The notes beneath the pieces are model-generated. The model worked only from the letters and a program-made list of their open reading frames with translations. It was not told where the DNA came from and did not search any database. From positions 434,001-498,000 of the forward strand of contig NZ_JXAL01000001.1 of assembly GCF_000829465.1 (NCBI RefSeq): a DNA stretch of 64,000 bases, written 5' to 3'. Made by a program: the position numbers and the translations under genes. Positions 23,575-29,166 of this stretch are shown here, in pieces (positions within the stretch are counted from its first letter, which is position 1; each line of letters begins with the position of its first letter). The stretch comes from Cohnella kolymensis. GTDB taxonomy: Bacteria; Bacillota; Bacilli; Paenibacillales; Paenibacillaceae.

Positions 23575-23616
23575 TCGAAAAAAAACAGCTGACAGGAATT
23601 GACCTGTCAACTGTTT
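23575..23616 (-). terminator. Terminator of the copper-amine-oxidase-domain gene
   Basis: On the minus strand AAACAGTTGACAGG pairs with CCTGTCAGCTGTTT and is followed by a run of eight Ts. Confidence 0.9.
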
Positions 23617-23658: not shown

Positions 23659-24702
23659 TTAAGATGCCGGGGACTGCGTCGGTTCAGCCGGTGTCATATC
23701 TGTAGGTGTACCGGTGGAATCCGGTGTGACCGTATCGGCGGGCGCAGCGGCGTCTTCCGGAGCGGATCCGTCGTCAGTGCTCTCCGCCGGATCGTTAACG
23801 ATCACGCTCCCCGATTCCGGCTCGTATCCAACCTTCATGGCGAACGCTTCAGCAATGAAACGAAAAGGCACAAACACTCTGTTATGTTTCACAATCGGCG
23901 CAGCCGACAGCGTATATTCCTTACCGTCTACCAAAGCCGTAGTGCTTCCTGCTTTGAGTTCGATCACAACGCCGTCTTTGGTGACGGTTACTGTGCCGTC
24001 TTCCTTATACTCCACTGTGGCTTTCAAAGAGGCAGCGATGGCGCGGAAAGGCACCATGGCACGTCCTTTGATGAAAAACGGCTCAACATCGGAGACAACC
24101 GCCTCACCATTTACAAAAGCCTGCAAACCTGCTTTGCCTGCTTTCTTCTTGAGCTTACCGAGCTTTTTGTAGCCTTCCAAATCAGCCGGATTCTCGGCAA
24201 TGGCCTCCTCTTGCGTATCGATGGCCTCTGCCGGCTTGTCCAATTGATCGAATACGTCCGCCAGTTGTGTCAGACCTTCGTATGTTACTTTGTACTTGCC
24301 TTCCTTATGTCCTTTACGAATTGCATCCGCCACCGCTTCGACGTCCGCTTCAGCTGCTGGTTCCCCAGTCAAGTCGGCGGATTCTCCGCTCTCGGAAAGC
24401 TCGTCCAGAGATTCGATGATTTCATCCACCTCATACTTGGACGATAGCAGAATGGAAATGGTCTCTTCGGCAGGGGTGTCTTTCACTTGCTCAATAGCGC
24501 GGTGCAATCCCCTTTTCTTTTCTACATCCGCTTCCGATGCGGAGTCTGTCTTGCCTTGCTTTTCGGTGCTGGAACCTTCTTGCTTCGAGGCGCCTTGTGC
24601 GTGGTCATTCTTAGCCAACGCATGGACTGGCAAGAGTGCCAAGCCTGCCGCTAATGCCGCGGCCAACGTGGCTGTCATCAGTGATCTCGCTTTTTTCTTC
24701 AC
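23659..24702 (-). CDS. Secreted copper-amine-oxidase-N domain ('stalk domain') protein, riboswitch-controlled
   Basis: A 347-residue secreted protein with a signal peptide (1-30), an acidic helical region with TPR-like spacing (about 60-180), and a copper amine oxidase N-terminal domain in two halves (AMVPFRAIAASLKATVEY and RVFVPFRFIAEAFAMKVGYE, about 195-300). A Pro/Thr/Asp-rich tail follows. In this family the domain is a small wall- or surface-associated module, not an amine oxidase. Translation starts at GTG 24702, preceded by AAGGAGG. The gene lies behind a c-di-GMP-I riboswitch and terminator, so expression depends on c-di-GMP. This points to a surface, biofilm or motility-related role. 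Confidence 0.85.
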   Translation of the reverse strand: MKKKARSLMTATLAAALAAGLALLPVHALAKNDHAQGASKQEGSSTEKQGKTDSASEADVEKKRGLHRAIEQVKDTPAEETISILLSSKYEVDEIIESLDELSESGESADLTGEPAAEADVEAVADAIRKGHKEGKYKVTYEGLTQLADVFDQLDKPAEAIDTQEEAIAENPADLEGYKKLGKLKKKAGKAGLQAFVNGEAVVSDVEPFFIKGRAMVPFRAIAASLKATVEYKEDGTVTVTKDGVVIELKAGSTTALVDGKEYTLSAAPIVKHNRVFVPFRFIAEAFAMKVGYEPESGSVIVNDPAESTDDGSAPEDAAAPADTVTPDSTGTPTDMTPAEPTQSPAS

Positions 24703-24725
24703 TTTCCTTTTCCTCCTTGAAAATA

Positions 24726-24755
24726 TAATAAAAAAAGACTACGTCGCGTAGTCCG
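24726..24755 (-). terminator. Riboswitch expression-platform terminator
   Basis: On the minus strand GGACTACG pairs with CGTAGTC and is followed by seven Ts, immediately downstream of the c-di-GMP aptamer and about 25 bp before the GTG start. Confidence 0.88.
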
Positions 24756-24775
24756 GCAAGTTCGTTCATAACGAC

Positions 24776-24872
24776 TCGTCCGGCAGCTGGCTGGCATGGC
24801 CTGTTATCCCGGCGGTAGCCCCTTTAGCTTTGCGTCCCCATCTTTCAATGGGTTTGCCATGTGCGGCGGTGC
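24776..24872 (-). ncRNA. Cyclic di-GMP-I (GEMM) riboswitch aptamer
   Basis: Read on the minus strand the leader contains CGCACATGGCAAACC, then a GAAA tetraloop hairpin (CCCATTGAAAGATGGGG), then GACGCAAAGC, then a second stem ending in CAGCTGCCGG. These are the conserved elements of the GEMM-I aptamer: the GGCAAACC strand, the GNRA loop and its receptor, and the GACGCAAAGC core. It starts at the predicted transcription start and is followed by an intrinsic terminator, so it should act by transcription termination. Confidence 0.92.
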
Positions 24873-24876
24873 ATAG

Positions 24877-24905
24877 ATTATATCATTATATCGAAATTTG
24901 TGGAA
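24877..24905 (-). promoter_or_regulatory. Promoter of the riboswitch transcript
   Basis: TTCCAC, a 17-bp spacer, then TATAAT (24882-24877) on the minus strand. This puts the transcription start within a few bases of the aptamer's 5' end. Confidence 0.65.
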
Positions 24906-24956
24906 TAACATGGAAAATTCGATTTTCTAGAAGATTTAATGAGATGTTAAAAAGCA

Positions 24957-24982
24957 AAAGGGGTGCCATGCGGCACCCCTTT
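24957..24982. terminator. Twin hairpin A (left boundary of repeat array)
   Basis: AAGGGGTGCC pairs with GGCACCCCTT. It is almost identical to the hairpin at 25260-25285 on the other side of the repeat array, and has A/T runs on both sides. Confidence 0.8.
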
Positions 24983-25241
24983 CTGTAAGGCGGCATAACC
25001 GTCTTACACGAGCAAATTCCCCCGCGAAGCGAACTGTAAGGCCGGTTATCGGACTTAAATGATGCACAGAACGTTCCACCTTGCACTGTAAGGCTGGCCA
25101 TCAGACTTACACGATGCACTCAACGCTCAACATCCAGCTGTAAGGCTAACCATCAGACTTACACGATGCACTCAACGCTCAATCTCGAGCTTTAAGTCCG
25201 GCTATCGGACTTACACGATCACTCTGCGCCCAACTAAATTA
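24983..25241. repeat. Five-copy 52-bp tandem repeat with an internal hairpin per unit
   Basis: Units start at 24983, 25034, 25086, 25138 and 25190 (51-52 bp each). Each begins CTGTAAGGC or CTTTAAGTCC and contains a dyad of the type TAAGTCCGGNNATCGGACTTA, then ACGATGCAC and a more variable end. Units 3 and 4 are nearly identical; the outer units are diverged. There is no ORF across it on either strand. It fills the gap between the big secreted protein gene and the riboswitch promoter and is enclosed by two matching terminator hairpins. Confidence 0.9.
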
Positions 25242-25259
25242 ATCGGATGTAATAAAACG

Positions 25260-25285
25260 AAAGGGGTGCCATTCGGCACCCCTTC
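25260..25285. terminator. Twin hairpin B; terminator of the 1241-residue protein gene
   Basis: AAGGGGTGCC, loop ATTC, GGCACCCCTT, followed on the minus strand by TCGTTTTATT. It lies 16 bp after the stop of the large secreted protein gene. Confidence 0.85.
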
Positions 25286-25300
25286 CTCGATATTGAATTA

Positions 25301-28300
25301 TCATTTCGTGCCGTTAACGAATATCCATGTTGTACCTTCTCCTGTACCGGTCTTGGCTGTCACCCGGTGTTGGCCGGGCTCTATGGATGACGGCAAAGCC
25401 AGATGCACGGTAAAGTCACCCGTATCCGTGGTTTTGCCTGTGGCGGATACATTGGCTATCGCAATCGTGACCATTTTGTTCGATACGGCCTTTCCCGCAC
25501 CGTTTGTTACTTTTCCGCTGACTGTTACCCTTTGACCCCCGCGAACGCCGTTGGTCACCGCATTGACGGAAATGCGGTCGCGCGCAGCCGCATCTGCAGG
25601 TGTTCCCACGAACAAGGTGCCGCTGACGCTGTCTCTCACCACTTGTGTTTGTCCGCCGTCCGCTGTCGAAATAACAACGCCGGACTCAATCGGGTACAGG
25701 ATGATTGCGTCAATATTAGCCTTGAAGGACTGGCTGGGATTTTTCAAATGCAGCTCGTGCTTGCCGGCCGTTAAGGAAACCGTTGCAATCCGTTTCAAGC
25801 TGACATGGCCGGAAGGTGCGTTCTGCAGCGGAAACTCTTTCCCGGCTTGATCATCGACTCCGATGACCACAGCCGGCTCGGCACCGTCTCCCCCCGCCGC
25901 AACCGAGCTTAACATGATATCGTATACGCCGGGTTTAGGTACTTCAACGGCGAACGTCTTCTGTTGTCCCGCCGGCATTTCGACATAGGCGCCGCCGGAA
26001 GAGTCCGGGCTTGCGTAGCGCACTTCGGGGACGGTCATCTTATAGATCTTCGCATCCGCAATTGACGCATAGCCTTCATACGGTTTCGGATTATCCGCGT
26101 CAACCTCAAAACGCACAACCAACTCCACCGTGCCTTCCGGGATCGCAGCCCTTGGTGTCGTGCTTACCGCACTTTCACCCGCATACCACGTGCGGGGATG
26201 ATAGCTCATGTCGTTGGCGTCGGCGACAATCGTCTCTTCTCCTGCGGCGTTAATCGCAGCCACTTCTGCGCGCAGTCCGGTATCGAACTCTACCCGTCCG
26301 TTAAACTGAAGCCTGACAGAATCGCCTGGCTTAAAGCCGCCTTGCCCACCATCGAGCGGAATTCGGGTCCGGATCGCTCCGTCATCGAACAGCCGGATAT
26401 TGTTATGCCCGCTCGCGGCAACGAAAATCGTTTTCTGCCCCTTCCAGTTAGGGTAGATCAGCGTATCGGCCCCGACCTGCATGGCATCTTCATAAATTTT
26501 TGCTTCGTCGGAACCGGAATCCGCATCTTGCTTCATAACCGCCTTCTCCGGTACGTTCAGCTCCCCTCCGGGAAGCGTCATTTCGATATCGGCCGGCGCG
26601 GTGCCCTTGTACAAATTTTCGATCTCAATCGTTTGTGCGATATGCGCGTTTGTCGTTACTCCCGGCAGATAAGATCGCGCAACCGTGTTCTCATTGATCC
26701 GCAACAATGCTCGAAGCGCTTCGGCGAGCGACTCTCCCCCGCTGTTGATGTTCACCCTCGTATCATATAGTCCGTCGTAAGCGTACCCGTTTTTCTGATC
26801 GAACATCGAAAAGCTGCGCACATTGTTGCCCGTCCACCATGTGCCGGCTAATCCGGCCATCACAGCGTATTTGCGCTTGCCTGTTACTTCGTACAACGCG
26901 AGATAATTGTCCACATAGCTCGCCGTTCCGTAGTTGATGAGCGGATAAGGTTTTTTGTTGGGGTGAAGATTCTCGGCCCGGCCGGATATGAGCAAATCGC
27001 TCAAGAAAGCGTCCGCTGCCTGCTCAGCGGCTTCGATCCATTGGCTCTGGCCTGTAATTTCGCCCGCAAAGGCGAGCGCCCTTACCTGAATGCTTCCCCA
27101 TTCATCCCAGCGGTCGGGATTCGTCATCTCGCCGTTATGCTGCATAATGCCGCCGTAAGCAAAGTCTCGGAAGGAAGTCCCTCTTCTTGCCATGTAAATG
27201 CCTTCCCCGAGCTTGAGCAGCGATTCTCGTATCGATTTTTTGACCGACGCGTCGTTGGTAGCATGATAATGCTCCGTTAATGCGTTAACCGCAATGGATG
27301 ATACCCATACATCCCCCATCAGCAGCCATTTCGCCACTTTCACATCGCCAAAAGTATAATATTGTCCGTAATTCGGATCCGTTTTCTCCTTCAGACGTTT
27401 CAAAGAAAGATTCAGTCTAGCCGTTACGCGAGCCTCAAGCTCCCGATCCGTTTTCTTCAACTGGGGAAGAGACTTCGCCATCGCTTCATATGCCCGGACA
27501 GCCCACCAGCTGAAGCTTTTTTGCGATGAATGGCTGTCCTTCTTATGAATGGTGCCGTCTGCGTCCCTTACGACAAAATTGTCAAAATCGCCGTCGTCAT
27601 ACTGCATCCACATCAGAAACTCGAGTCCGCGCTTGATCATGTCATAGCTGTAGTCGTCCCCATAGGTTTCATAGTGTTCGACATACGCGATAACTGACCG
27701 GGACACATCGTCAACGGCCCCAAGGCCTTCCTGCGGGTCTCCGACCCATTCGTACCCTCTGGACAAATCGTTGCGGTCGACCGGTTCGGAGTACAGGTGC
27801 GTAATGAACATGGGGACGCCGTCGATCGTTATTTTCTCATTCATAAAATTGAAATGCTTCAGGTTGAGGTAGACTTCATCTGCTCTTTTCAGCCCGTATT
27901 TGCGGAAAAAGGACAAATCCTTGCCTGTAAGCTGCCCGTCAGCGTCGTAATCGTATTTCAAATCCGGCTTGCCGGTTCGGAGCATGGCGGTCAGCGCTTC
28001 TTCGTCCTTGGCATCAACGGCGTTGTCTCCATTGACATCATATTTGGATATCGATTCTTCCCGCTCGGCGGATATGCCGATATTTCGGATCCTTACAGGC
28101 TTGTCCGTTTCATTGTGCAGCTCCACCCAAATTTCCACCGCGTCGTCATGAAGGATACCGCCGTTCGTCCTGACGGAATCCTGCGCCGTAAACCAAGTGC
28201 CCCGCGGCGTATTTGCAATATCATTAATATCGACCTGCGTTCCCTTCGCGTCATGAACCCGAACAAATACGCCGTCCGTCCGGTTAACGCCATCCTCGAC

Positions 28301-29026
28301 GAACAAGTCGGATTTTACTTGTATTTTGTCGCCTGCTTGCGGCTCGCCGCTGCCGTCTCCAAAAGGAACACTGCGCCATGCCGCCGCGCCGGGCTGCATA
28401 AGAAGCGAGCTTGTCAAATAAGATTTGTCCGTTCCGTTGTTGTCCCAGCCCGCCATGCCTGAGGAGAAATCGTATGTCGCATAGTTTTTGACAACGCCAT
28501 TCGCTTCCCCCCAGACGACGATTTTGGCAATTTCGATCGTTCCGGGAGTATCGTTGTGAATTTCGATCCACAAGTCGTTCTGGCCGACCGGAATGACACC
28601 GTTATTGTCGATAAACTTGGTTGTCGATTCCGCTTCTTTGCCGCGTTGCAGCCCGCTCAAGTCGTTGATCTCCGCCAGAGTGCTTCCGGCGTTCAACCGG
28701 ATCAATACATTAGCGTCTGTCGTTACGTCGCCATTCAAAATGAACGTCGCTTTTGCATAGACGGAATCCCCCGCAGCAGGGGCGTTACCGTTACCTGTAA
28801 TCGGAATTGCCCGCCACAGCGCAGCACCCTGTTTCAAAGTCAGATGCTTCTGCGCGGCGAACTTGGATGCATCGCCTGTCTCCCAATTCGTTAATCCGGT
28901 GCTCAGATCGTCGTTGTCAATTATGTAATGCACGATGCTCGTTTCCGCCGCATGACTCCCGGGAGTAACGCCAAATGAGAAAATGAGGCAAAACACTAAT
29001 AGAGATACCAGTTGCTTTTTAATCAA
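25301..29026 (-). CDS. Large secreted multidomain protein, alpha/alpha-barrel glycoside-hydrolase-like with EF-hand (dockerin-like) pair
   Basis: A 1241-residue secreted protein. TTG 29026 is chosen because GGAGG lies eight bases upstream and a signal peptide (IKKQLVSLLVFCLIFSFG..SHAA) follows at once; the longer reading to 29089 crosses the ribosome binding site. Domains in order: two related beta-rich modules (about 35-175 and 183-320, each with GAALWR or GAAAWR and a WIEIHN or WVELHN strand), an EF-hand pair (DVNGDNAVDAKD at 330, DYDADGQLTGKD at 359), a helical barrel-like region rich in Trp (about 400-790), a third beta module (855-1000), a CBM6/35-like module (1010-1115) and an Ig-like C-terminus (1150-1241). 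Likely a polysaccharide-acting enzyme. The catalytic family is not certain. Confidence 0.78.
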   Translation of the reverse strand: MIKKQLVSLLVFCLIFSFGVTPGSHAAETSIVHYIIDNDDLSTGLTNWETGDASKFAAQKHLTLKQGAALWRAIPITGNGNAPAAGDSVYAKATFILNGDVTTDANVLIRLNAGSTLAEINDLSGLQRGKEAESTTKFIDNNGVIPVGQNDLWIEIHNDTPGTIEIAKIVVWGEANGVVKNYATYDFSSGMAGWDNNGTDKSYLTSSLLMQPGAAAWRSVPFGDGSGEPQAGDKIQVKSDLFVEDGVNRTDGVFVRVHDAKGTQVDINDIANTPRGTWFTAQDSVRTNGGILHDDAVEIWVELHNETDKPVRIRNIGISAEREESISKYDVNGDNAVDAKDEEALTAMLRTGKPDLKYDYDADGQLTGKDLSFFRKYGLKRADEVYLNLKHFNFMNEKITIDGVPMFITHLYSEPVDRNDLSRGYEWVGDPQEGLGAVDDVSRSVIAYVEHYETYGDDYSYDMIKRGLEFLMWMQYDDGDFDNFVVRDADGTIHKKDSHSSQKSFSWWAVRAYEAMAKSLPQLKKTDRELEARVTARLNLSLKRLKEKTDPNYGQYYTFGDVKVAKWLLMGDVWVSSIAVNALTEHYHATNDASVKKSIRESLLKLGEGIYMARRGTSFRDFAYGGIMQHNGEMTNPDRWDEWGSIQVRALAFAGEITGQSQWIEAAEQAADAFLSDLLISGRAENLHPNKKPYPLINYGTASYVDNYLALYEVTGKRKYAVMAGLAGTWWTGNNVRSFSMFDQKNGYAYDGLYDTRVNINSGGESLAEALRALLRINENTVARSYLPGVTTNAHIAQTIEIENLYKGTAPADIEMTLPGGELNVPEKAVMKQDADSGSDEAKIYEDAMQVGADTLIYPNWKGQKTIFVAASGHNNIRLFDDGAIRTRIPLDGGQGGFKPGDSVRLQFNGRVEFDTGLRAEVAAINAAGEETIVADANDMSYHPRTWYAGESAVSTTPRAAIPEGTVELVVRFEVDADNPKPYEGYASIADAKIYKMTVPEVRYASPDSSGGAYVEMPAGQQKTFAVEVPKPGVYDIMLSSVAAGGDGAEPAVVIGVDDQAGKEFPLQNAPSGHVSLKRIATVSLTAGKHELHLKNPSQSFKANIDAIILYPIESGVVISTADGGQTQVVRDSVSGTLFVGTPADAAARDRISVNAVTNGVRGGQRVTVSGKVTNGAGKAVSNKMVTIAIANVSATGKTTDTGDFTVHLALPSSIEPGQHRVTAKTGTGEGTTWIFVNGTK

Positions 29027-29166
29027 ACTTCTCAACCTCCAATAGACCCCTGAAGTATGTTCTAGGGGCCGCCATAGTGAGTGATGCAATATCGACAGAT
29101 AAGGTTATGTATCCTATAATTGCCTATCTGAAACTTTTCTATTGTGAGTAAGAATGGGAGTTTACC

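Follow-up and report, generated by a model that had tools for sequence, protein, structure and literature searches.

A c-di-GMP-I riboswitch before a secreted stalk-domain protein gene in Cohnella kolymensis: a known RNA class with an unusual target

Introduction

Two described leaders and one described protein are the closest to the locus analysed here. According to the available part of PMC9262584, the Cd1 RNA of Clostridioides difficile has a c-di-GMP aptamer and a terminator that can coexist, and the 3' strand of its P1 helix can pair downstream as an antiterminator, sequestering the ligand-binding cytosine. The ligand-contacting bases of Cd1 are named there as G11 and C87, and a change of G11 was without large effect. 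The same part of the paper describes the pilM leader of Geobacter metallireducens, which senses cGAMP and in which the terminator uses an aptamer strand. On the protein side, the available text of PMC10432803 reports that the PF07833-class domain of the Paenibacillus lautus protein PaSOD (8IMD) forms homodimers, with a fold termed novel by its authors and partly like the E. coli domain. PMC9765702 discusses type IV pili and c-di-GMP in Paenibacillus thiaminolyticus; in its accessible portion, the word 'riboswitch' appears a single time, among the references. The literature searched (titles and the openings of abstracts) contained no report that links the present target protein family with a c-di-GMP riboswitch.

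Identity of the aptamer

The window is the whole stretch of 64,000 nucleotides of Cohnella kolymensis DNA that was analysed (GCF_000829465.1, contig NZ_JXAL01000001.1, positions 434,001 to 498,000), and all coordinates below refer to it unless stated otherwise. At 24726-24905, a first-pass annotation made from the letters alone had proposed a c-di-GMP-I riboswitch, with a promoter, a terminator and a GTG start, and had given no strand. All leader elements and the target gene lie on the minus strand:

24877..24904, minus strand: promoter-like sequence (promoter scan), with a -35 TCCACA (24904-24899), a 16-base spacer and an extended -10 TATAAT (24882-24877) preceded by TG
24779..24868, minus strand: c-di-GMP-I (GEMM-I) aptamer (Rfam match)
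24864..24866, minus strand: 5' strand of P1, CCG (predicted)
24780..24782, minus strand: 3' strand of P1, CGG, the 'A' strand, able to change partner (predicted)
24753..24783, minus strand: alternative hairpin of CCGG (24783-24780) with CCGG (24756-24753) (predicted, no ligand)
24730..24754, minus strand: intrinsic terminator GGACTACG-CGA-CGTAGTCT plus T-tract, hairpin 24754..24736 (terminator scan)
24712..24718, minus strand: ribosome-binding site AAGGAGG (read from the sequence)
23659..24702, minus strand: target gene, 347 aa, GTG start, with signal peptide, helical part, TPR-like part at about 142-187, PF07833 at 196-302 and disordered tail
23583..23616, minus strand: terminator-like hairpin 3' of the target gene (terminator scan)

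The proposed riboswitch class is borne out by the Rfam covariance-model scan, in which RF01051 (c-di-GMP-I, GEMM-I) matches 24868..24779 over its full length (1-87) with 73.3 bits and an E-value of 1.7e-12, the cut-off being 35. This is the sole above-threshold Rfam match in a scan of the entire 64-kb window. In the Rfam alignment, model column 11 falls on a G (24858) and column 83 on a C (24783), which we take to be the equivalents of G20 and C92, the c-di-GMP contacts in the numbering of Vc2. The cGAMP subtype, GEMM-Ib, carries A20, and 24858 is a G. Therefore, c-di-GMP is the expected ligand on the basis of these bases. Three other RF01051 copies of the same genome have A at the G20 position, a point for an aptamer that senses another cyclic dinucleotide (3',3'-cGAMP), but with G and C at the two contact positions of the window copy we regard this as extremely improbable. 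Since the G11 change in Cd1 had little effect, as far as the available part of PMC9262584 goes, the G20 base points strongly to the ligand type but does not prove it.

Judged from its sequence, the element is a genuine c-di-GMP-I riboswitch and, as an RNA, an ordinary one. It resembles the class in its full-length model match, in its G20 and C92 equivalents and in the putative transcription terminator (24754..24736) downstream as expression platform. It differs in the type of target, a secreted protein with a TPR-like and a stalk part.

Leader elements

The terminator had been identified correctly: the hairpin 24754..24736 with its T-run is identical in Cohnella sp. CFH 77786 (G018), a second species with the orthologous gene. 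In the 2-kb stretch, nine terminator-like sites were found versus 1.9 expected. The GTG start at 24702 was also rightly placed and aligns with the ATG of the orthologue. The promoter fared less evenly. An extended -10 site is present and its TATAAT is identical in the leader of G018, but the -35 differs there, and with three promoter-like sites in 2 kb versus 1.9 (sd 1.4) expected, the match alone is not beyond chance. A transcript start near 24870 is inferred from this site. Given the terminator-like hairpin after the gene, the target transcript is probably monocistronic.

A tandem array at 25033-25235 (period 52, 3.9 copies, palindromic unit GTAAGGCCGG..ATCGGACTTA) is flanked by two near-identical terminators, 25286..25259 and 24983..24956. 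Allowing up to 2 mismatches, a genome-wide search with the unit pattern gives 46 matches (28 forward and 18 reverse, some palindromic places being counted on both strands) and one with its reversed control gives 1. Many of the matches lie 51-52 bases apart, and the unit belongs to a dispersed intergenic repeat family. The upstream neighbour (25301-29089, minus strand) is a frame of 1262 aa; its sole Pfam match, to dockerin, lies below threshold, and it has no NCBIfam match.

Target protein

The stalk-domain gene directly after the leader had been named as the target, which is correct. PF07833 (Cu_amine_oxidN1, stalk) covers residues 196-302 with 107.7 bits, versus a curated cut-off of 24.2. 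No other Pfam family reaches E <= 0.001 across the 347 aa, and at the same threshold no amine oxidase catalytic domain was found in the protein. The earlier label 'copper-amine-oxidase-N domain' is thus right as a Pfam name, but should not be taken to imply an oxidase. A copper amine oxidase enzyme was considered and rejected, PF07833 being the sole family at this threshold.

A signal peptide and a disordered Thr/Pro/Ser-rich tail can be read from the sequence. For the target protein alone, the Pfam TPR models stay below their cut-off; a profile of 20 homologues matches solved TPRs at positions of about 125-187 (best E 2.2e-28) and domain 1 of the E. coli amine oxidase over 211-284. The predicted structure, made from 2 sequences, is weak overall (mean pLDDT 54.6, pTM 0.33) and only its stalk part was therefore used. 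This part superposes on domain 1 of the E. coli copper amine oxidase over 74 columns at 1.3 A (E 7.5e-06), and a comparison of the predicted model with 8IMD gave no match (E 0.91). PaSOD, as described in the available text of PMC10432803, is likewise a secreted Paenibacillaceae protein assigned to the same Pfam family, but the target protein has no SOD domain and its model fits the E. coli domain 1 rather than 8IMD. By analogy, the homodimers reported in that text are a hint at what PF07833-class domains can do. Our guess for the role of the protein is envelope or matrix binding.

Conservation in a second Cohnella species

Within the genome collection, a scan with both orthologues returned Cohnella sp. 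CFH 77786 only. The orthologue shares 63% identity with the target protein over residues 44-339, and 60% over the whole alignment. Its leader has an RF01051 match of 55 bits. In a pairwise alignment of the two leaders, a 30-base terminator block is identical and the aptamer is largely kept. The sequence of the spacer between aptamer and terminator is not conserved, and the distance between the two elements is equal in both species. With up to 2 mismatches allowed, the 25-base terminator pattern is present in 2 of 37 Cohnella genomes and its reversed control pattern in none of the 37.

The c-di-GMP circuit of the genome

Ten RF01051 matches (L001 to L010) were found in the genome of the window, one of which, L010, fits RF03167 better than RF01051. 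Downstream of L001 lies a 71-aa protein without Pfam match, followed by what by eye is a sensor-kinase-like protein, and L002 is followed by DUF192 and then by a Flp/Fap-like pilin (30.7 bits, just below the cut-off of 32.2). L003 precedes PilZ, L004 FapA, L005 the target gene of the window, L006 FN3 repeats and L007 a T2SSE protein with MshEN (PilB-type ATPase). No clear gene follows L008 and L009, and L010 is followed by a 149-aa protein without Pfam match and, further on, by a DUF6531 frame. The genome also has eight GGDEF and three EAL matches, each set including two adjoining fragments. Together with the riboswitch set, these domains make a c-di-GMP circuit plausible. Among the 31 PF07833 matches of the genome, a comparison of positions places an aptamer directly upstream of the gene in the window only.

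The three copies with A at the G20-equivalent position, the cGAMP-type base, are L003 (G000:C4:26340-26427), L008 (C9:1240-1324) and L009 (C14:196451-196536). The leaders at L008 1240-1324 and L009 1501-1586 are very similar and lie on different contigs, in both cases less than 1.5 kb from where the contig ends. In the flagged rows of the 146 relatives' aptamers, the G20-equivalent position by eye is A in L118, L149, L188 and L189, U in L100, and C in L152, L165 and L186.

RNA folding and switching sense

The coupling between aptamer and terminator was computed with a penalty method for eight leaders, with swapped aptamers as the control. Of the ten aptamers of the own genome, the values cover L001, L003, L004 and L005 (the window leader). 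As the automatic finder had reported no terminator for L024 and L003, these two were chosen manually; the aptamer structure line of L014 was fitted manually to the RF01051 layout, and the P1 helices were chosen by script.

In ligand-free growing transcripts of the window leader, P1 (CCG:CGG, extended) forms until about 100 bases. Once the second CCGG is made, the expected P1 pairs drop from 5.41 to 0.10 and the A:T pairs of the alternative hairpin rise from 0.00 to 6.71-6.98. In the full-length leader, 5.87 A:T pairs are still expected alongside the formed terminator. As the A:T pairing occupies C24783, the C92 equivalent, ligand and alternative hairpin are predicted to be mutually exclusive. 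The last base of the second CCGG, G24753, also opens the terminator stem, so that the two structures overlap by one base. The computed P(term) is 0.981 with the aptamer forced and 0.917 when free, and the coupling is +4.45 kcal/mol versus a mean of 4.57 (sd 2.12) for seven swapped aptamers. Positive coupling was therefore discarded as evidence for an OFF sense in the window, the swap control showing no specificity. An antiterminator of the P3 strand with the 3' arm of the terminator, seen in one computed state, was rejected as well: most of the strand is common to GEMM motifs in general, and the swap control came out negative.

Across the eight leaders, the native coupling exceeds that of every swapped aptamer in L024, L001 and L004, and does not do so in L005, L012, L036, L014 and L003. 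Four of these leaders precede homologues of the target gene. That of G042 (L024) goes from a P(term) of 0.011 when free to 0.999 when forced, with a coupling of 13.39 versus a swapped maximum of 9.92, and in this model is a clear OFF design. The G054 leader (L014) also moves in the OFF sense, from 0.195 free to 0.964 forced, with a coupling (6.90) below the swapped mean of 8.87. For G046 (L036), P(term) is 0.998 and 0.999 in the two states and the coupling of 5.57 falls inside the swapped range. In the second Cohnella species (G018, L012), the native coupling of 0.75 is lower than the mean with swapped aptamers (3.16), the alternative hairpin abuts the terminator without overlap, and folding predicts hardly any A:T pairing (0.06-0.20 expected pairs).

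The reading that we favour, with modest confidence, is a c-di-GMP-I riboswitch that attenuates transcription of a probably monocistronic secreted-protein gene and turns it OFF at high c-di-GMP. In this mechanism, c-di-GMP would bind after C24783 and before the second CCGG (24756-24753) has been transcribed. Bound ligand would lock P1 and block the pairing of CCGG with the first base of the terminator, which could then form fully and switch the gene off. For the sense by itself, repression by c-di-GMP, the balance tips only a little beyond even: the lean comes from the ligand, which would free G24753 for the terminator, and it is weak because a terminator is likely to form whether or not the aptamer is forced, with a coupling that equals the swapped control. 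The window terminator is built without the 3' strand of P1, as in a Cd1-type OFF switch, and, as with Cd1 in the available part of PMC9262584, aptamer and terminator can coexist and the P1 3' strand can pair downstream over the ligand-binding cytosine. The difference is that the pairing in Cd1 is an antiterminator, whereas the A:T pairing predicted in the window overlaps the terminator by one base and its coupling is not above the control.

The opposite sense has its own arguments. c-di-GMP often increases the expression of pilus and adhesion genes, which would favour an ON switch if the target protein aids attachment. The co-targets in this genome, a Flp-like pilin, a PilB-type ATPase with MshEN, an FN3 protein and a PilZ protein, make up such a set. 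The alternative hairpin, flush with the terminator, would then aid termination without ligand and c-di-GMP would relieve it, so that the protein is made in the sessile state with pili and adhesins; in G018, the two hairpins indeed abut without overlap. Against this stands that forcing the native aptamer lowers P(term) in none of the eight leaders, and that no aptamer strand takes part in the terminator. The window leader shares the GEMM-I fold and a terminator-based design with pilM, but neither the cGAMP sensing nor the aptamer strand in the terminator that the available part of PMC9262584 describes for pilM is seen in it, so this ON layout does not apply. Overall, an ON switch is considered unlikely. 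A genuine aptamer with weak output, or one acting at another step (translation or RNA stability) while the terminator is mainly a constant attenuator, would agree with the high P(term) in both computed states and with a coupling no different from that of swapped aptamers. It fits poorly with a terminator block that both Cohnella species keep in full and equally far from the aptamer, and we hold it to be decidedly improbable.

Linkage of aptamers to homologues

An Rfam scan of 49 homologue loci, the best-scoring ones (29 + 20, L210 left out), found a c-di-GMP-I-type aptamer directly before the homologue in four: G018 (L012), G054 (L014, best fit RF03167), G042 (L024, before the second of two paralogues) and G046 (L036). 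These four span three families of the order, the window's own family included. In L040 the aptamer precedes an unrelated gene, and the second batch of 20 among the 49 loci gave no aptamer. With 302 matches in 60 genomes, aptamers number about five per genome versus several thousand genes; the linkage in 4 of 49 loci is far above expectation, although these cases share descent. The first-pass assignment to the c-di-GMP switch can hence be kept for some members of the protein family, but not for the family at large, given the single case among 31 PF07833 matches of the own genome and the 4 of 49 homologue loci.

In the reverse direction, a profile of 27 homologues was run on forward frames of at least 40 aa after 146 relatives' aptamers (the best 150 matches listed minus 4 of the window's own genome; 6 of the 146 stretches are shortened by contig ends). 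Among the matches listed, a stalk domain lies within about 1.8 kb after 2 of the 146, namely G046 again and G013. For a common domain this rate is near chance, and a general enrichment of stalk genes as c-di-GMP-I targets was rejected; the link thus belongs to the homologue sub-group and not to the PF07833 domain. The G013 case (L129, G013:C12) is an RF03167 aptamer (c-di-GMP-I-GGC type, 71.5 bits) followed by a frame of 544 aa that combines PF07833 with a GHL10 glycosyl-hydrolase-like domain. Three further homologue loci, from three genomes that belong to a single genus, have a c-di-GMP-I aptamer near a stalk gene (L029 771-857, L034 2599-2685 and L035 2660-2745), but it precedes another reading frame, which is short and looks secreted.

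In a phylogeny of 20 homologues, the aptamer-linked genes, five with that of the window, do not form one clade. The linkage requires three changes, two of them forced by starred branches, a number equalled in 22 of 500 shuffles. A single origin of the linkage was rejected on this count, with the placement of L036 being unsure because of its long branch.

Significance

The aptamer and its ligand-contact bases, the terminator, the gene, the conservation in a second Cohnella species and the repeated linkage to homologues in other families are features of the DNA itself. What makes the locus of interest is the recurring target rather than the RNA: a known riboswitch class before an unusual target. 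It is possible, although on the doubtful side, that c-di-GMP recurrently targets the small secreted TPR-plus-stalk protein in the order, through c-di-GMP-I-type aptamers gained more than once with differing platforms, and that the gene is OFF at high c-di-GMP. If so, the protein would act in the envelope or matrix of motile cells and not in the biofilm. To our knowledge, most PF07833 stalk domains have no role assigned to them. With a riboswitch ahead of one sub-group, and again in other families, there is a condition, the c-di-GMP level, under which a phenotype may be sought, and the ten-site riboswitch set of this genome offers comparison material for the target.
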